Below are positions 38,378 through 55,857 of a stretch of 64,000 bases of DNA, piece after piece; position 1 is the stretch's first letter; the number at the start of each line of letters is the position of its first letter. Location: the NCBI RefSeq assembly GCF_014610845.1, contig NZ_JABTCG010000001.1:744001-808000 (forward strand), given 5' to 3'. The DNA is from Maribacter arenosus (GTDB lineage Bacteria; Bacteroidota; Bacteroidia; Flavobacteriales; Flavobacteriaceae). Below the pieces are notes generated by a model. It did no database searches, was not told the DNA's origin, and worked only from the letters and a program-made list of their open reading frames with translations. The position numbers were made by a program, and so were the translations under genes.

Positions 38378-38462
38378 GGAGAAATGGCAGAGTGGTCGAA
38401 TGCGGCAGTCTTGAAAACTGTTGAGGGTCACACCTCCGGGGGTTCGAATCCCTCTTTCTCCG
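38378..38462 (+). tRNA. tRNA-Ser(UGA)
   Basis: The acceptor GGAGAAA (38378-38384) pairs with TTTCTCC (38455-38461), with discriminator G at 38462. The anticodon loop CTTGAAA gives anticodon TGA, reading UCA-type serine codons. The T-loop GGTTCGAATCC is standard, and the extra arm (GAGGGTCACACCTC) is long, as in class II tRNAs. CCA is not encoded. Confidence 0.96.
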
Positions 38463-38480
38463 CAAAAGGAAAACCATAAC
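38447..38480 (+). repeat. Direct repeat copy 1: tRNA 3' end plus terminator arm
   Basis: These 34 bases run from the tRNA T-arm through its 3' end and the first terminator arm. They recur at 38621-38654 with a single mismatch. Such duplications of a tRNA 3' end are typical of integrase attachment sites or of a deleted neighbouring tRNA. Confidence 0.8.
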
Positions 38481-38497
38481 GGGAGTTATGGTTTTTT
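38472..38497 (+). terminator. Terminator of tRNA-Ser
   Basis: AACCATAAC (38472-38480), loop GGGA and GTTATGGTT (38485-38493) are followed by a T-run. It lies 9 bp after the tRNA. Confidence 0.85.
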
Positions 38498-38548
38498 TGT
38501 TTTTATGGAAAAACGGAATTTATTCCTGTTTTGGAATGAAAATAAAAA

Positions 38549-38620: not shown

Positions 38621-38654
38621 AATCCCTCTTTCTCCGCAAAAGGAAACCCATAAC
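38621..38654 (+). repeat. Direct repeat copy 2: isolated tRNA-Ser 3' end
   Basis: This is 33 of 34 bases identical to 38447-38480, without the rest of a tRNA. It continues into its own small hairpin CCATAAC/GTTATGG (38648-38665), equivalent to the tRNA terminator stem but with a different loop (TCTC). There is no integrase gene and only 140 bp between the copies. Confidence 0.8.
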
Positions 38655-38800
38655 TCTCGTTATGGATTATTTGTTCTCTGAAACAACGAATGCATTGGCA
38701 ATAAAATGCTACTTAGATTTTCTTATTTCCCAGTTTTCGAACTATACTGTGATACCAACCAAGCTAGAAATCTAAATTTAGGGGGTTAAATGTTATATTT

Positions 38801-38834
38801 TGTTTAATATTAAGTATTATTAGTTAAACAATAT
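38801..38834 (+). promoter_or_regulatory. Shared regulatory element, plus-arm copy
   Basis: TGTTTAA (38801-38807), 15 nt, then GTTAAACAATAT (38823-38834). TTGTTTAA and TTAAACAA form an 8-bp inverted repeat. The same motif with the same spacing is at 44275-44308 on the other strand. It ends 50 bp before the Lacal_2735-type gene. Extra half-sites GTTAAA (38785) and TTTAAC (38840, 38857) surround it. Confidence 0.65.
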
Positions 38835-38884
38835 CTATCTTTAACTATTATTTACATTTAACCTCTAATTCAATTAAAAAAGAT

Positions 38885-39049
38885 ATGTTCGGACTATTCA
38901 AAAAAAAATCAGAAAAGGAAAAACTACAGGAAAAGTATGGGAAGCTATTGAAAGAAGCACATAGCTTGTCAACCACCAACAGGAAATTAAGCGATGCTAA
39001 AGTATTTGAGGCTGAGGAAGTCATGAAAAAAATAGAAGCCTTGGCTTAA
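38885..39049 (+). CDS. Lacal_2735-type small protein
   Basis: The 54-aa protein MFGLFKKK... is highly charged and helical, with LLKEAHSLSTTNRKLSD and a second helix ending MKKIEALA. From memory it belongs to the flavobacterial Lacal_2735 family; function unknown. It is the first gene downstream of the shared regulatory element and is followed after 27 bp by the DUF2805 gene, so it is probably part of the photolyase operon. Confidence 0.8.
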   Translation: MFGLFKKKSEKEKLQEKYGKLLKEAHSLSTTNRKLSDAKVFEAEEVMKKIEALA

Positions 39050-39076
39050 TTGAGAACCATTGGCTAACACCTACTT

Positions 39077-39367
39077 ATGGCCTTGCATAAAAAATCGTTT
39101 ACCGAAAGGGAACTAGACCGCATCATCGAAATGGCCTGGGAAGACAGGACACCTTTTGAGGCCATACGCTTTCAATTTGGCCTACCTGAAAAGGAAGTAA
39201 TCGGACTAATGAGGCGCTACCTTCAGCCAAAAAGTTTTAAACGTTGGCGAAAACGTGTAAATAGTGGTGTGAGCCAAAAACATTTAAAGAAAAGACATCC
39301 AGTTATTACCCGCTTCAAATGCTCAAGACAGAGGGCCATATCCGGAAATAAAATAAGTAAACGATAA
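39077..39367 (+). CDS. DUF2805/TIGR03643 family protein
   Basis: The 96-aa basic protein has the family text FTERELDRIIEMAWEDRTPFEAIRFQFGLPEKEVI, which looks like a helix-turn-helix (residues 8-45), then LMRRYLQPKSFKRWRKRV and a basic tail. The fold suggests nucleic-acid binding, but no function is proven. The family is often next to photolyase genes, as here: the next gene starts 6 bp downstream. Confidence 0.88.
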   Translation: MALHKKSFTERELDRIIEMAWEDRTPFEAIRFQFGLPEKEVIGLMRRYLQPKSFKRWRKRVNSGVSQKHLKKRHPVITRFKCSRQRAISGNKISKR

Positions 39368-39373
39368 ATACCT

Positions 39374-40501
39374 GTGCTATTTAAAGATGAAATAACAATA
39401 TTTCCCACTTCCTATAAGGAGATTTTGCAACGGCTTAACACAATTGACCCCTTGAAGTACGGGGCAACCAGAAACTTTATAGATGGTGCGGTCACTTACT
39501 TGTCTCCCTATATTTCCAGGGGTGTTATCTCTACCAAATTTGTCCTCACTGAGGTTTTAAGGCGGGGATATCGGCCCGAACAAATAGAAAAGTTCATCCA
39601 GGAATTGGCATGGCGGGACTATTGGCAACAAATTTGGATTGCCAAAGGTGATGCCATCAATCATGATTTAAAACAACCGCAAAAGCCTGTTACGAATAAT
39701 GCCCTATCCAAAGCCATCATTGATGGTCAGACTGGTATTAAAGCCATAGATAAAGCCATTGCCCATTTTTACCATACGGGATATCTACATAACCATGTGC
39801 GCATGTACATTGCCTCCCTTGCCTGTAATGCGGCACAAAGTCATTGGAAACTTCCTGCCCAATGGATGTATTACCATCTTTTGGATGGCGATTGGGCCAG
39901 TAATGCTTTGAGCTGGCAATGGGTTGCAGGCACCAACAGCAATAAAAAATACATCGCCAATCAAGATAATATCAACAAATATTGCCATACGAAACAGCAA
40001 GGCACTTTTTTAGATGTAAGTTATTCAACGCTACAGGAAATGCCAGTGCCTAAGGTGTTAGATGATTTGGTAAAGCCCGAATTAAAAACACCTTTGCCGG
40101 AAGCAGTGCCCATTCAAGTTGATATCTCCCAACCTACGTGTATTTATAATTTCTATAATCTCGACCCACTTTGGAAGAAGGATACAAAAGCCAATCGGAT
40201 TTTATTGCTGGAACCATCCCATTTTAAGCAGTATCCCATTTCTAAAATGAGTGTTGATTTTATGCTTTCGCTCACTAAAAACATAGCGCATATGCAAGTT
40301 TATGTAGGGGAATTCCAGGAGTTGGTAGATAGGTATAAGTTAAAGGATATTCATTACAAAGAACATCCGCTCAACACCCATTATCAGGGTACGCAAGAAC
40401 CACGGGATTGGATGTTTACGGTAAAAGGTTATTATCCTTCATTCTTCTCCTATTGGAAAAAATGCAAGAAAGAAATGCTGACCATAAGAACAGAACCATA
40501 A
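39374..40501 (+). CDS. Photolyase/cryptochrome relative with FAD domain first
   Basis: In this 375-aa protein residues 10-215 match the FAD-binding helical domain of class I photolyases: GATRNFIDGAVTYLSPYISRGVIS, FIQELAWRDYW and WASNALSWQWVAGTNSNKKYIANQDNINKY. The usual N-terminal alpha/beta antenna domain is missing. Instead residues 262-370 look alpha/beta (RILLLEPSHFKQYPIS, MQVYVGEFQELV), as if that domain had moved to the C-terminus. It starts with GTG at 39374; no ATG precedes the conserved text. Light-driven repair or signalling is likely but not shown. Confidence 0.8.
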   Translation: MLFKDEITIFPTSYKEILQRLNTIDPLKYGATRNFIDGAVTYLSPYISRGVISTKFVLTEVLRRGYRPEQIEKFIQELAWRDYWQQIWIAKGDAINHDLKQPQKPVTNNALSKAIIDGQTGIKAIDKAIAHFYHTGYLHNHVRMYIASLACNAAQSHWKLPAQWMYYHLLDGDWASNALSWQWVAGTNSNKKYIANQDNINKYCHTKQQGTFLDVSYSTLQEMPVPKVLDDLVKPELKTPLPEAVPIQVDISQPTCIYNFYNLDPLWKKDTKANRILLLEPSHFKQYPISKMSVDFMLSLTKNIAHMQVYVGEFQELVDRYKLKDIHYKEHPLNTHYQGTQEPRDWMFTVKGYYPSFFSYWKKCKKEMLTIRTEP

Positions 40502-40572
40502 TACGTATCAAGTTGTTCAGGGCTCTGGAAAATCAACCTTTATATCTTTATAATAACGTACCCTTTTAAAAA

Positions 40573-40701
40573 ATGAAAAAAAGACACCTTCCACAAAAAA
40601 TATGTCCGGTTTGCCTTCGCCCTTTTTCGTGGCGGAAAAAATGGGAATTAAATTGGGAGGACGTCAAATATTGCAGTAAACGTTGTAGAATAAACAAATG
40701 A
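40573..40701 (+). CDS. DUF2256 small zinc-finger-like protein
   Basis: The 42-aa protein has CPVC near residue 11 and YCSKRCR near 34, a four-Cys site, with PFSWRKKW between, matching DUF2256. Members are commonly encoded beside photolyases. Its stop overlaps the start of the next photolyase-family gene in ATGA, so the two are translated together. It is too short for ordinary gene finders but the family match is clear. Confidence 0.85.
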
Positions 40702-42182
40702 AAAGTATACACCTCATTTTTCCGAACCAATTGTTCGAAGAATCTCCGCTTTTTAAAAAGAAAGTACCTGTTTATTTAGTGGAAGAGTATTTATTCTTTA
40801 GTCAATATCCGTTTCATAAACAAAAAATAGCCTTTCATCGGGCAAGTATGAAAAAGTACGAAGCGTTTTTAAAAGCTTTGGATTACGAGGTATATTATAT
40901 AGAAGCCACTCAGGAAATTTCAGATATTAGAAAACTCATTCCAGAACTAAAAAGCATCGGAATTACAGAAATCACTTATATTGACCCCAATGATAATTGG
41001 CTTGAAAAAAGAATTGAAAGTGGTTGCAAAGAACAAGGAATTACAACTAACATACTAGAATCCCCAATGTTCCTAAATACCAAGCAAGAGCTTGCAGTTT
41101 ACTTTAAAGGGAACAAGAAAAAATATCATCAGTCTACCTTCTATACCGAAGAACGCAAAAAACGTAACATCCTTTTGGAATCCGATGAAACCCCTAAAGG
41201 TGGAAAATGGACCTTCGATACCGATAACCGCAAGAAATACCCAAGAAAAAAAACACCGCCACCAATTACTTTTCCCGATTTGGATGATTTTTATGCGGAA
41301 GCAAAGACATATGTGGATAAAAGTTTTGCAGACCATTTAGGAAACCTAACGGAACAAGCCTTATATGCCACTGATTTTGAAACTTCAAAAGCCTGGTTAC
41401 ATCAATTTTTTGAATATCGGTTTATGGAGTTTGGTGCCTATGAAGATGCCATAGTGGCCGAAAACTCCATTCTCAACCATAGTGTTTTGACCCCCATGAT
41501 GAATGTGGGATTGATTACACCTCATGAAATCGTTGATGCTTGTCTTAAATACGGCGAAGAGAACGATATTCCCATTAATTCCTTGGAAGGATTCATACGA
41601 CAAATTATTGGGTGGAGGGAGTTCATTGGCGGTATATATCGCTTTCATGGATCCTTTGAACGGAGTCGCAATTATTGGGGATTCACAAAAAAGATTCCAG
41701 CCTCATTTTATAAGGGCACCACGGGCATCCCACCAATTGATCAGACCATTAAAAAAGTACTACAGACCGGATATTGCCATCACATTGAAAGACTAATGGT
41801 TTTGGGGAATTTTATGATGCTCTGTGAGTTTGATCCCAAAGAGGTGTATCGATGGTTTATGGAGCTATTCATAGATGCTTATGATTGGGTCATGGTACCC
41901 AATGTATATGGCATGAGCCAGTTTTCGGATGGAGGATTGTTCGCTTCCAAACCTTACATAAGTGGCAGTAATTACCTGATGAAGATGAGCAATTACCCAA
42001 AGGGGGAATGGCAGGCCACATGGGATGGACTTTTTTGGCGTTTTATGGATGTACATCGGGACTTCTTTACACAAAACCCAAGGTTGGGGATGTTGGTCTC
42101 GATGTTTGACAAAATGTCAAAAGAAAAAAAGGAAAATCACCTAAAAAATGCGAAGGACTACTTAAACAGTTTAGATTTTTAA
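40698..42182 (+). CDS. PhrB/FeS-BCP-type photolyase relative lacking Fe-S cysteines
   Basis: The 494-aa protein follows the prokaryotic (6-4) photolyase/cryptochrome plan: an alpha/beta antenna domain (1-150) and an FAD domain with [14 protein letters not shown] near 300, [23 protein letters not shown] near 357 and [12 protein letters not shown] near 400. In PhrB the region after this carries Cys that hold a 4Fe-4S cluster; here [18 protein letters not shown] has none. The catalytic His-His pair is kept. The stop overlaps the convergent membrane-protein gene by 4 nt. Confidence 0.88.
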
Positions 42183-42616
42183 GCTTCAAAGTGGATGGTA
42201 TACGTAGAAAGATAATGTATTAAACTTAATAAAAACAATACCGTCCACAGCACTGTTCTAATCCAGTTTTTCGTCACCAATGACGACAACATGGCTTCAC
42301 TCACTATACCTTTTGAAATGTTTCTATGGATTGGTACAAACTGTAAAAAGGTGGAAAGCCAAACCATAGATATTACTACAAGACTTCCAATCGGATATAA
42401 GGAGCGTGCGCTAATCACTTGAACTATTGAAAGACCTAGTTGGCCCACCATTAAAGGCATTACAACAAACCCAATTCGAAGGGTATATTTTCTATGCCAA
42501 ACCATCAAATTATCGGTACTATAGTGTAGAAAGCTCGGGTATATTATTCTTTGCACGATCCAAATCAATACCAATAATCCAAAATCGAATAAAATCCTAA
42601 GGAAATCTATAGTCAT
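42179..42616 (-). CDS. Hypothetical four-span membrane protein
   Basis: The 145-aa protein has about four hydrophobic segments (residues 7-25, 46-66, 76-94 and 118-138) and a WH..Y motif in the first loop. I recall similar proteins in flavobacterial photolyase neighbourhoods without assigned function. It overlaps the upstream glutathione peroxidase gene by one base and its 3' end overlaps the convergent photolyase relative, so it is the last gene of the minus arm. Confidence 0.7.
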   Translation of the reverse strand: MTIDFLRILFDFGLLVLIWIVQRIIYPSFLHYSTDNLMVWHRKYTLRIGFVVMPLMVGQLGLSIVQVISARSLYPIGSLVVISMVWLSTFLQFVPIHRNISKGIVSEAMLSSLVTKNWIRTVLWTVLFLLSLIHYLSTYTIHFEA

Positions 42617-43140
42617 TACAAATGCTTGGTAATCTTGGAACTTAAAGGTTTTGTGATGGAATAGTAGAAATCTATAAGATTCCCATTTTCATCAACGAGG
42701 TATTTTTGAAAGTTCCATTTGACGCTTGAACTTTTCTTTCCGTTGAGTTTTTTTTCGGTAAGCCAATTGTATAAAGGGTGTTTATTACTTCCTTTCACCT
42801 GGATTTTTTCGGTCAGTAAAAAGGTAACGCCAAAATTCCGTTTGCAAAAAGATTGTATCTGACTTGAATCCCCAGGTTCTTGATGTCCGAATTGATTGCA
42901 AGGCACTCCTATAACCACAAGCGAATCGCGATATGCATCACTCAGTTTCTGTAATCCCTTGTATTGTTTCGTAAATCCACATTCAGAGGCTACATTCACA
43001 AATAACATTTTCTTTCCTTCAAATTGGGAAAGCTCAATAGGTTCGCCACCTAAACTATTTATAGCGATATCATAAATAGCAGGCTTACTCTTTATACTTT
43101 TGTTTATTGGTCCCAATTTTACCTTATTCGTCGTTCTCAT
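42616..43140 (-). CDS. Glutathione peroxidase family thiol peroxidase
   Basis: The 174-aa protein has the catalytic Cys54 in NVASECGFT, PCNQFGHQEP near 88 with the Gln of the tetrad, and KWNFQKYLVDENG near 140 with Trp and Asn. The Cys form (no selenocysteine) usually takes electrons from thioredoxin. It reduces lipid hydroperoxides. An N-terminal stretch of about 20 residues precedes the fold and lacks a clear signal peptide. It is 6 bp downstream of folE, within the minus arm of the photolyase/pterin cluster. Confidence 0.9.
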   Translation of the reverse strand: MRTTNKVKLGPINKSIKSKPAIYDIAINSLGGEPIELSQFEGKKMLFVNVASECGFTKQYKGLQKLSDAYRDSLVVIGVPCNQFGHQEPGDSSQIQSFCKRNFGVTFLLTEKIQVKGSNKHPLYNWLTEKKLNGKKSSSVKWNFQKYLVDENGNLIDFYYSITKPLSSKITKHL

Positions 43141-43146
43141 ATTGGC

Positions 43147-43848
43147 CTATTCGTTCAAATAATTTTGTAACTCCGCAATCTTACTGGATTTCAGGAACAC
43201 ACCGCCATAATAGGAGGTCACGGTCGCAGAGGTGTCATCTTTAATACCTCGCGAAGATACACATAAGTGCTTTGCATCTATGATCACTGCAATATCCTCG
43301 GTTTGCAGGGTTGCCTTTAGGTCCATGGCAATTTGGTTGGTCAATCGTTCCTGCACCTGTGGCCTTTTGGCATAGTACTGTACAATTCTATTGAGTTTGG
43401 AGAGGCCGATAACTTTGCCCGAAGAAATATATGCGATGTGTGCTTTTCCGATAATGGGAACAAAATGATGCTCACAGTTGGAATAGAATGTAATATTCTT
43501 TTCAACCAACATTTGATTGTATTGATACTTGTTGTCAAATAAAGCCACTTTAGGTTTATTGGCCGGATTGAGACCTGAAAATATCTCATCTATATACATT
43601 TTAGCAACCCTTTTTGGTGTTCCCCGAAGCGAATCATCGGTAAGATCCAGTCCCATAACATCCATAATTTGGGCAAAAAGTCCTTCTATCTTTTCTTTCT
43701 TCCTGTCATCTGAAATATCAAATGCATTTTCTTTCATAGGGGTTTCCAATCCCGTATAAATATGGTCATCTCCAATTTCCTCATGGGAAAACCCATTAAG
43801 TCCATTTTCTTTAATAAGGGTATTCAACATAGTTTCTTGGTGTTTCAT
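43147..43848 (-). CDS. folE: GTP cyclohydrolase I
   Basis: The 233-aa enzyme turns GTP into 7,8-dihydroneopterin triphosphate, the entry to folate and tetrahydropterins. The zinc and active-site residues are visible: Cys and His in YSNCEHHFVPIIGKAH near 125, and His-Cys in DAKHLCVSSRGIKDDTS near 193. It overlaps the PTPS-family gene by 38 nt (20 nt if Met7 is used), which implies coupling. Its place with photolyase relatives rather than folate genes suggests a pterin for light or redox chemistry. Confidence 0.95.
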   Translation of the reverse strand: MKHQETMLNTLIKENGLNGFSHEEIGDDHIYTGLETPMKENAFDISDDRKKEKIEGLFAQIMDVMGLDLTDDSLRGTPKRVAKMYIDEIFSGLNPANKPKVALFDNKYQYNQMLVEKNITFYSNCEHHFVPIIGKAHIAYISSGKVIGLSKLNRIVQYYAKRPQVQERLTNQIAMDLKATLQTEDIAVIIDAKHLCVSSRGIKDDTSATVTSYYGGVFLKSSKIAELQNYLNE

Positions 43849-44230
43849 ATAGTTTTATTTTCAATTCTAAATTAATATCCAATTCTGTTTTAAGAAGGTT
43901 ATAAATAACTGCCGCAATATGCTCTGCCGTAGGATTCAAATCCCTGAATTCCTCAGTATCCAAGTTCAGGTTCTTGTGATCGAAACGGTCAAGTACTTTA
44001 TCCTTAATGATATCTGATAATATTTTCATATCTATAACATAGCCGGTCTCTGGATCAATATTACCGATAACCTTTACCTCCAAATCATAGTTGTGTCCAT
44101 GGTAATTGGGGTTATTGCATTTTCCGAAAACGGCTTTATTCTTTTCAATACTCCAATTCTTATTATGAAGCCTATGGGCAGCATTAAAATGTTCACGACG
44201 CACTACCGCAATCTTATCTATTTTATTCAT
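43811..44230 (-). CDS. 6-pyruvoyltetrahydropterin/6-carboxytetrahydropterin synthase family
   Basis: The 139-aa enzyme has the zinc His in HFNAAHRL (near residue 15) and NYHGHNYDLEV (near 43), the catalytic Cys38 in KCNNPNYHGH, and the Asp-His pair in DRFDHKNLN near 83. It acts on the folE product to make a tetrahydropterin, or 6-carboxytetrahydropterin on the queuosine route; the missing queuosine genes favour the former. It is the first gene of the minus arm and lies 44 bp behind the shared regulatory element. Confidence 0.88.
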   Translation of the reverse strand: MNKIDKIAVVRREHFNAAHRLHNKNWSIEKNKAVFGKCNNPNYHGHNYDLEVKVIGNIDPETGYVIDMKILSDIIKDKVLDRFDHKNLNLDTEEFRDLNPTAEHIAAVIYNLLKTELDINLELKIKLYETPRNYVEYPY

Positions 44231-44274
44231 GACTATTTTAATGACTTAAATTTATAGAAGTAAAGATATTCTTA

Positions 44275-44308
44275 ATATTGTTTAACTTTTAATATATTTT
44301 GTTAAACA
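44275..44308 (-). promoter_or_regulatory. Shared regulatory element, minus-arm copy
   Basis: Read on the minus strand: TGTTTAA (44308-44302), 15 nt, then GTTAAACAATAT (44286-44275). All 19 fixed bases and the spacing equal the copy at 38801-38834. It ends 44 bp before the PTPS-family gene. TGTTTAAC and GTTAAACA form an 8-bp dyad. Confidence 0.65.
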
Positions 44309-54058: not shown

Positions 54059-54643
54059 TTATGAATTTGTAAGTACGATCTTGTTTTTATCTATGATCTT
54101 TCTAAGGTTTATCAGGGCATAACGCATTCTTCCCAAGGCTGTATTAATACTTACCCCTGTATTTTCCGAAATTTCCTTAAAACTCATATCCTTATAAATA
54201 CGCATTAATAGCACTTCCCTTTGATCATCGGGCAACTCGTCTATAATACATCTTAAATCAGAATTGATCTGATCTTTTATCAGTTGTTTCTCGGCATTTA
54301 ACTTATCATCCCCTATTACTGAGAAAATATTGAAGTCATCATTACCTTCGAACATCGGCATTCTTTTGTTCTTTCTAAAATGATCGATGATTAGATTGTG
54401 GGCAATTCGCATTACCCAAGGCAAAAACTTACCTTCCTCACTATAGGAGCCTTTTTTCAGGGTTTTGATTACTTTGATAAAGGTATCCTGAAAAATGTCT
54501 TCGGTAATATCCCTATCCAAAACTTTCGAATAGATAAAACTTGATATACGTTGATTGTGTCTATTGATTAAGATTTCCAGGGCCTTTTCATCACCACTGA
54601 TATAATCTCTTACCAGTATTGAATCTTCGATTTGTAGTTCCAT
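54059..54643 (-). CDS. ECF-type RNA polymerase sigma factor (copy 1)
   Basis: The 194-aa protein has sigma region 2 (EDIFQDTFIKVI and FLPWVMRIAHNLIIDHFRK, residues 48-90) and region 4 (LPDDQREVLLMRIYKDMSFKEISENTG, residues 136-165), with the linker typical of ECF factors and no N-terminal regions. It is an ungapped paralogue of the protein at 55276-55857, about three quarters identical by eye. Its 47-aa partner gene follows after 69 bp. No classical anti-sigma gene with a membrane span is adjacent. Confidence 0.92.
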   Translation of the reverse strand: MELQIEDSILVRDYISGDEKALEILINRHNQRISSFIYSKVLDRDITEDIFQDTFIKVIKTLKKGSYSEEGKFLPWVMRIAHNLIIDHFRKNKRMPMFEGNDDFNIFSVIGDDKLNAEKQLIKDQINSDLRCIIDELPDDQREVLLMRIYKDMSFKEISENTGVSINTALGRMRYALINLRKIIDKNKIVLTNS

Positions 54644-55275: not shown

Positions 55276-55857
55276 TTAATTCGTTAAAACAATGTTATTC
55301 TCCTCTATGATCTTCCTTAGATTGATCAGGGCATATCGCATACGACCCAATGCGGTGTTTATACTAACTCCGGTATTCTCGGAGATTTCCTTAAAACTCA
55401 TATCCTTGAACATGCGCATAACCAATACATCGCGTTGATCTGGTGGCAATTTTTCGATAAGTAACAGCAGGTCCTCATCGATTTGGTTTTTTATGAGTTG
55501 TTTTTCGATATTCAACTTCTCATCTTGGATAACAGAGAATATATCAAATGCACTGGAGGATTCAAAAAAGGGCATTCTTCGATTTTTCCGGAAATGATCT
55601 ATTATCAGGTTATGGGCGATACGCATGACCCAGGGTAAAAACTTACCCTCTTCATTATACCTTCCTTTTTTAAGGGTTCGTATGACTTTAATAAAGGTGT
55701 CCTGAAAAATATCCTCCGTAATTTCACGATCGTTGACCTTTGAATATATAAAACTACTGAGTCGTTGGTTATGCCTGTTTATCAATGTTGCCAGAGCTCT
55801 TTCGTCTCCGTTGATATAACTTTGTATAAGTAGGGAATCTGCTATTTGAAGTTCCAT
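55276..55857 (-). CDS. ECF-type RNA polymerase sigma factor (copy 2)
   Basis: The 193-aa protein has the same layout as copy 1: region 2 with EDIFQDTFIKVI and WVMRIAHNLIIDHFRK, region 4 with LPPDQRDVLVMRMFKDMSFKEISENTG. The two differ mainly in the linker (residues 95-130) and the first 30 residues, which suggests a changed target or partner. The 115-bp gap to its 47-aa gene contains a CGACC/GGTCG mini-hairpin. Divergent from uvrA, 245 bp apart. Confidence 0.92.
   Translation of the reverse strand: MELQIADSLLIQSYINGDERALATLINRHNQRLSSFIYSKVNDREITEDIFQDTFIKVIRTLKKGRYNEEGKFLPWVMRIAHNLIIDHFRKNRRMPFFESSSAFDIFSVIQDEKLNIEKQLIKNQIDEDLLLLIEKLPPDQRDVLVMRMFKDMSFKEISENTGVSINTALGRMRYALINLRKIIEENNIVLTN

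Follow-up and report, generated by a model that had tools for sequence, protein, structure and literature searches.

The window analysed here, a 64,000-nucleotide stretch of the Maribacter arenosus genome, holds two gene arms with photolyase relatives and pterin genes, each preceded by a copy of the same short element, which raises the question of what protein reads this element. The plus-strand arm encodes a 54-residue Lacal_2735 family / DUF6435 protein (38885–39049; PF20027, and NF033487 above cut-off), a 96-residue DUF2805 protein (39077–39367; PF10985, and TIGR03643 above cut-off), a 375-residue photolyase/cryptochrome FAD-binding-domain protein with a GTG start in the open reading frame list (39374–40501; PF03441 above cut-off), a 42-residue DUF2256 protein (40573–40701; PF10013) and a 494-residue deoxyribodipyrimidine photo-lyase-related protein (40698–42182; PF04244 and PF03441). 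On the minus strand, a PTPS-family enzyme of 139 residues (43811–44230; PF01242) is followed by GTP cyclohydrolase I, FolE (233 residues, 43147–43848; PF01227, and NF006824 above cut-off), a glutathione peroxidase family protein (174 residues, 42616–43140; PF00255) and a membrane-type protein of 145 residues (42179–42616) that appears hydrophobic by eye and matches no family in Pfam or NCBIfam. The two arms converge, as claimed in the preliminary description of this DNA, and their ends overlap by 4 bp (42179–42182). The same description placed the element at 38801–38834 (plus strand) and 44308–44275 (minus strand), 50 bp before the open reading frame at 38885 and 44 bp before that at 44230; the coordinates are right, with 0 mismatches, and the distances are borne out.

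The element had been presented as a shared 34-nt sequence and its symmetry was missed. It is a 30-bp inverted repeat, TGTTTAAY-N14-RTTAAACA, located at 38801–38830 and 44279–44308. The first copy, candidate operator A, reads TGTTTAAT-N14-GTTAAACA on the plus strand before the plus-strand arm and belongs to a pattern enriched in relatives; the second, candidate operator B, reads TGTTTAAC-N14-GTTAAACA on the minus strand before the minus-strand arm. The ATAT tail common to both copies falls outside the conserved core of 73 unidirectional sites. This core comprises TGTTTAAY, a 14-bp spacer and RTTAAACA, with spacer positions 10–13 and 18–21 nearly all A/T. Because an inverted repeat is matched on both strands, the two places give four matches in the window at up to 3 mismatches, compared with 0.13 expected, and four or more were obtained in 0 of 100 shuffles. 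The exact symmetric form occurs at 5 sites in the window genome versus 0 in the control; the loose form, with 2 mismatches or fewer, shows no clear enrichment in this genome (19 forward and 22 reverse sites versus 16 and 15 for the reversed control). Around operator A runs a longer inverted repeat (38784–38810 and 38837–38863) with 27-nt arms that are 70% complementary and outer ends GGTTAAATG and CATTTAACC. Elsewhere in the window, the 3' end of a tRNA-Ser(TGA) gene (38378–38463) together with a hairpin, 55 nt in all (38447–38501), is repeated 174 bp downstream (38621–38675) with 87% identity, which resembles the trace of an integration site.

The preliminary description had recognized that its proposal would fail if the motif were frequent at random AT-rich sites or were not conserved upstream of orthologous clusters. 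Neither is the case in the photolyase loci of relatives, defined by the best 80 of 172 relatives of the 494-residue photolyase-related protein and amounting to 1,482,594 bases. With at most 1 mismatch, these loci contain 83 sites with a 14-bp gap, no more than 6 at any other gap between 4 and 25, and 2 in the reversed control; with up to 2 mismatches there are 109 sites versus 8 in the reversed control. Chance palindromes are ruled out by the gap scan together with the reversed controls. Neighbours were counted for intergenic sites as the nearest outward-pointing gene on either side within 350 bp. They encode Lacal_2735 (37), DUF2805 (11), PTPS (10), CrtI-like (6), glutathione peroxidase (5), FAD-domain cryptochrome (5), FolE (4), DoxXb (4) and TetR-like (3) proteins, others occurring 1–2 times each, and 47 neighbours are non-marker genes. 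By a reading of the site listing, 16 of the 80 loci lack a site at up to 2 mismatches, some of them being short contigs or other families. At the same threshold, loci L155 and L156 lack the site and have a Lacal_2735-led cluster.

A regulator or an alternative sigma factor had both been suggested as the agent behind the element. That the element is itself the promoter of an alternative sigma factor could be argued from its fixed spacing and orientation, and from two neighbouring, similar ECF-type sigma genes elsewhere in the window (54059–54643 and 55276–55857, minus strand; TIGR02937 above cut-off for both). Such a promoter should show directional boxes that replace the housekeeping ones. What is seen instead is a palindrome, separate from the promoter, followed by a housekeeping-type −7 box, TAnnTTTR, at a preferred position: the box begins at operator position 36 in 43 of 131 oriented sites and in 38 of the 73 unidirectional ones. 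In the window, the putative −7 box TATCTTTA lies at 38836–38843 on the plus strand, at position 36 of operator A, and again at 44261–44268 on the minus strand, at position 41 of operator B, off the commonest position. The sigma-factor proposal is consequently regarded as having a negligible chance of being correct. In the available text on Flavobacterium psychrophilum, the TAnnTTTR box is located at −12 to −5 (PMC9723704). A box at this location places the operator at about −47 to −18, such that the −33 region would lie beneath a bound protein. A TTTG box spaced canonically (19–21 bp) from the −7 box is mostly absent, occurring at position 12 in 4 of the 73 unidirectional sites. TAnnTTTG also peaks at operator positions −5 and 16; these peaks were discounted, by judgement, as arising mostly from the sequence of the operator itself.

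The genes behind the element extend beyond photolyase and pterin functions. Exact sites were collected from 74 stretches of 25 relatives, among the matches listed, and the window-genome sites were added. Of the 82 exact sites examined, 74 were assigned to gene kinds: fasciclin (18), tetR-aarF (15), the pterin cluster (13), crtI (9), the photolyase cluster (6), htpG (4), SRPBCC-phr (3), GLPGLI (3) and single cases, with the reservation that two sites are counted twice owing to the overlap of stretches L236 and L237 and that a site between divergent genes is scored for both. In the window genome, the remaining sites with neighbours of these kinds, exact or at 1 mismatch, lie before a photolyase operon, a fasciclin gene and two fasciclin-repeat genes, and in the gap between htpG and tetR-aarF. 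Families confirmed by profiles near the window-genome sites are fasciclin, TetR_C_23, ABC1, HSP90, photolyase and short-chain dehydrogenase; the protein that we labelled SRPBCC has no Pfam or NCBIfam match. Both fasciclin-repeat genes of the window genome carry a second, weaker copy of the element. At the fasciclin-repeat genes of five loci, two copies are spaced 42–51 bp apart, start to start, or about four to five helical turns. In six other loci a family of ~ 142 residues, with no Pfam match for the one member searched (L181), begins 30–31 bp behind the element and heads a DUF2805-folE operon.

A candidate for the protein that reads the element is encoded on another contig of the window genome. 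Two proteins of this genome match PF02607, one of which is a 301-residue MerR plus B12-binding_2 protein whose gene (G000:C18:533419–534321) immediately precedes crtI (NF058655 above cut-off) and a phytoene synthase family gene (PF00494). The start codon of the regulator gene lies inside a copy of the element whose right arm reads GATGAACA and which has 3 mismatches to the symmetric pattern. Among 30 orthologue loci searched at up to 2 mismatches, a site covers the regulator start codon in 14 and occupies the gap before crtI in 5, with both arrangements in one locus; the remaining 12, including that of the window genome, have no site over or beside the regulator gene at this threshold.

The occurrence of the element follows that of the regulator gene. 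In the wider search of related Flavobacteriaceae envisaged by the preliminary description, which covered 199 genomes from 198 genera, the exact motif was found 395 times compared with 13 for the reversed pattern. A regulator orthologue, defined by an E value of 1e-67 or better, is present in 149 of these genomes, and the exact motif occurs in 140 of the 149 versus 6 of the 50 genomes without it (Fisher p 1.6e-28, phylogeny ignored). The motif is found in 2 of the 30 regulator-negative family genomes that are at least 90% complete, and in 2 of the 12 with only a weak regulator relative (E 1e-44 to 1e-56). A genome of the same genus, G032, has a weak relative only and no site, either exact or at 1 mismatch. 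When 1 mismatch is allowed, 8 of the nine orthologue-bearing genomes without an exact motif have sites (32 versus 6 in the control, summed by eye), and eight genomes with a weak relative only have 14 sites versus 11 in the control (also summed by eye). Across 247 genomes of the class Bacteroidia, the exact motif is present in 97 of 152 with a regulator homologue, leaving 55 where it is absent, versus 1 of 95 without a homologue, again with phylogeny ignored. Outside the family, among the matches listed, 27 of 59 exact sites (37 genomes) are within 1 kb of a regulator gene, and the CarH homologue is the gene adjoining the motif in 22 of these 37 genomes. The overlap with the regulator start codon and the tracking of a MerR-type gene are further evidence against a sigma-factor promoter.

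Co-occurrence would also be expected if the element were bound by some other DNA-binding protein inherited together with the CarH homologue, for example the DUF2805 or TetR_C_23 protein, whose genes stand directly behind the element in many loci; a helix-turn-helix appears possible in DUF2805, by eye. Against this, the adjacency of motif and CarH homologue recurs in the other families of the class, as counted above, and for DUF2805 the motif is present in 39 of 42 genomes that have the CarH homologue but lack DUF2805, and in 5 of 18 that have DUF2805 but lack the orthologue. These counts weaken DUF2805 as the binder, and a co-inherited binder is considered highly improbable. The suggestion of one regulator for light/photo-oxidative-damage and pterin genes is strongly supported by comparative genomics and can be attached to the CarH/LitR-like gene by crtI, while its sigma-factor variant is abandoned. 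Judged from genome sequences, the 30-bp repeat is very likely the operator of this one CarH/LitR-like regulator, positioned over a housekeeping promoter.

The regulator protein begins with a MerR-type N-terminal DNA-binding domain (PF13411, 50.8 bits with a cut-off of 21.6), followed by a four-helix bundle that is matched by PF02607 and also present in the predicted structure, and by a predicted alpha/beta (Rossmann B12) domain that starts at residue 178; PF02310 is not among its profile matches. In all of 24 proteins compared, the key B12-contact residues are invariant: W143, E153 and H154 of Wx9EH, and E191, H193 and G196 of the lower-ligand motif D/ExHx2G. The rest of the classic B12 motif (x41 SxV/T x22-27 GG) is unmatched in the 24 proteins, by eye: S237 is invariant, but its spacing is 40 and YF comes next, and a single invariant glycine (G271) is located where GG is expected. 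All 24 have Gln directly after the tryptophan, at the position of His132 in Thermus thermophilus CarH. His132 carries the ligand switch in that protein, according to the available part of PMC10442372, and the excerpted account in PMC11796333 describes the position as variable among other cobalamin photoreceptors, with Gln in one. The best PDB matches to the AlphaFold model are the CarH structures 5c8d, 5c8f and 5c8e, with TM scores of about 0.55 for the whole protein and, normalised by target length, up to 0.79 for the B12 domain. The score for the NCBIfam CarH equivalog NF052513 is 77.2 bits versus a cut-off of 400. Because it falls short of this cut-off and does not match the later part of the B12 motif, the regulator is termed CarH-like rather than CarH proper; it is a homologue of CarH and probably functions in the same way.

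Comparison with characterised systems bears on how the operator would be used. To the extent that the sources describe them, the CarH proteins of T. thermophilus, Bacillus megaterium and myxobacteria share with the present regulator a MerR-type domain joined to a B12 domain, the Wx9EH and ExHxxG motifs, an operator over a promoter, carotenoid genes as targets, and the half-site TnnACA (given for CarH in the accessible text of PMC9304148). Of the 131 oriented sites, 120 have this half-site in the right arm and 122 have it in the left. However, CarH operators are described as tandem 11-bp direct repeats, which were found in 0 of the 131 oriented sites at the +11, −11 and −22 registers, and the operator here is an inverted 30-bp one. 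The regulator likewise differs from CarH in having Gln for His132, in its unmatched SxV/T...GG segment, in missing the NCBIfam CarH cut-off, and in a far wider gene set. The Pseudomonas regulators LitR, PplR and PmlR, as far as PMC9758184 was available, are of the MerR/B12 family and govern light-induced phrB, cryB, folE and related genes. Their operator, T(G/A)TACA-N12-TGTA(C/T)A, also pairs TnnACA-type half-sites; it is 24 bp long, compared with the 30 bp of the present element, and different in sequence. The class II LitR of Pseudomonas is described there as being without a working B12 site and having a LOV protein as its partner.

By analogy with CarH, dark repression is the likely mode of regulation. 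In the dark, the AdoB12-loaded regulator would bind the two TnnACA half-sites, whose centres are two helical turns apart, and would cover about −47 to −18 of the housekeeping promoter, keeping both window arms low. In the light, the cobalt-carbon bond would be broken and the regulator released, whereupon the photolyase relatives, the pterin pathway, glutathione peroxidase, the carotenoid genes and the regulator's own gene would rise together. Physical binding, AdoB12 dependence, light dependence and repression over activation are what we infer in this scheme. The same protein might bind the site and activate, or its signal might be the supply of B12 or the redox state instead of light. Activators are common in the MerR family, whose members, in the portion of PMC8156234 available, either repress or activate; most sites are without a canonically spaced TTTG box, as activator-dependent promoters may be, and His132 is replaced by Gln. 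Conversely, the operator lies over the −33 region, so that a tetramer bound to it should keep polymerase out, the targets are photoprotection genes, and the characterised CarH/LitR proteins are dark repressors in the passages seen of PMC9758184 and PMC8156234. Activation or a different signal is thus deemed unlikely relative to light-relieved repression by the CarH-like regulator.

Sites beside a retinal-forming dioxygenase gene, on two photolyase-bearing contigs and others, led us to test rhodopsin genes. Both neighbours were checked at two loci, L157 and L254; there, a rhodopsin gene (PF01036) lies on one side of the site and, on the other, a divergently oriented gene for the retinal-forming dioxygenase (PF15461). 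PF01036 is found in 51 of the 199 family genomes, the window genome not being one of them. Fifty rhodopsin loci were taken and 3 dropped, leaving 47 that could be evaluated for a site in the 220 bp upstream, with up to 2 mismatches allowed. Such a site is present in 22 of 38 loci from regulator-bearing genomes, versus 0 of 38 in the reversed control, and in 3 of 9 loci from genomes without the orthologue, of which two are 73% and 81% complete and the third has a weaker relative. The element is directly upstream of rhodopsin in ten loci, L254 among them; the copies at rhodopsin genes are often 15–24 bp before the start, and some loci have two. A somewhat better than even chance is given to the broader proposal that a divergent Bacteroidia branch of CarH/LitR, lacking the His132 switch and reading the 30-bp inverted-repeat operator, is the group's general light switch, directly controlling proteorhodopsin and retinal synthesis in addition to photolyase, pterin and carotenoid genes. 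Proteorhodopsin, retinal biosynthesis, cryptochrome and photolyase are light-responsive in Dokdonia MED134, as recounted in a Vibrio proteomics paper (PMC9040609), whose account, in the part available, names no regulator for this response.

Some elements of this picture are already known, as far as the sources could be seen: CarH, LitR and light regulons that include phrB, cryB and folE (PMC9758184), and a MerR/B12 gene by zeaxanthin genes (PMC6974559). In the latter case, Muricauda GF1, the gene is likewise upstream of the zeaxanthin genes and the authors suggest that carotenogenesis is regulated in response to photo-oxidative stress; the available account gives no operator, and the words photolyase and cryptochrome are absent from the main text. 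A literature search, with most subscription journals outside its reach, returned no description of the operator in titles or abstracts among the matches listed. Within that reach, what is new is the Bacteroidia operator with its inverted layout, its overlap with the start codon of the regulator gene, the wide range of genes behind it and the connection to proteorhodopsin.

The inverted layout suggests that the CarH half-site may be usable in inverted orientation. The operator also joins genes of unknown role, namely DUF2805, DUF2256, Lacal_2735, the TetR_C_23 / ABC1-kinase pair and the fasciclin proteins, to one gene set. If true, the general light switch would account for the reported induction of proteorhodopsin expression by light in Dokdonia. 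Together these observations provide one directly testable, sequence-level hypothesis for the way in which a large bacterial group switches on photoprotection, DNA photorepair and often proteorhodopsin in the light.
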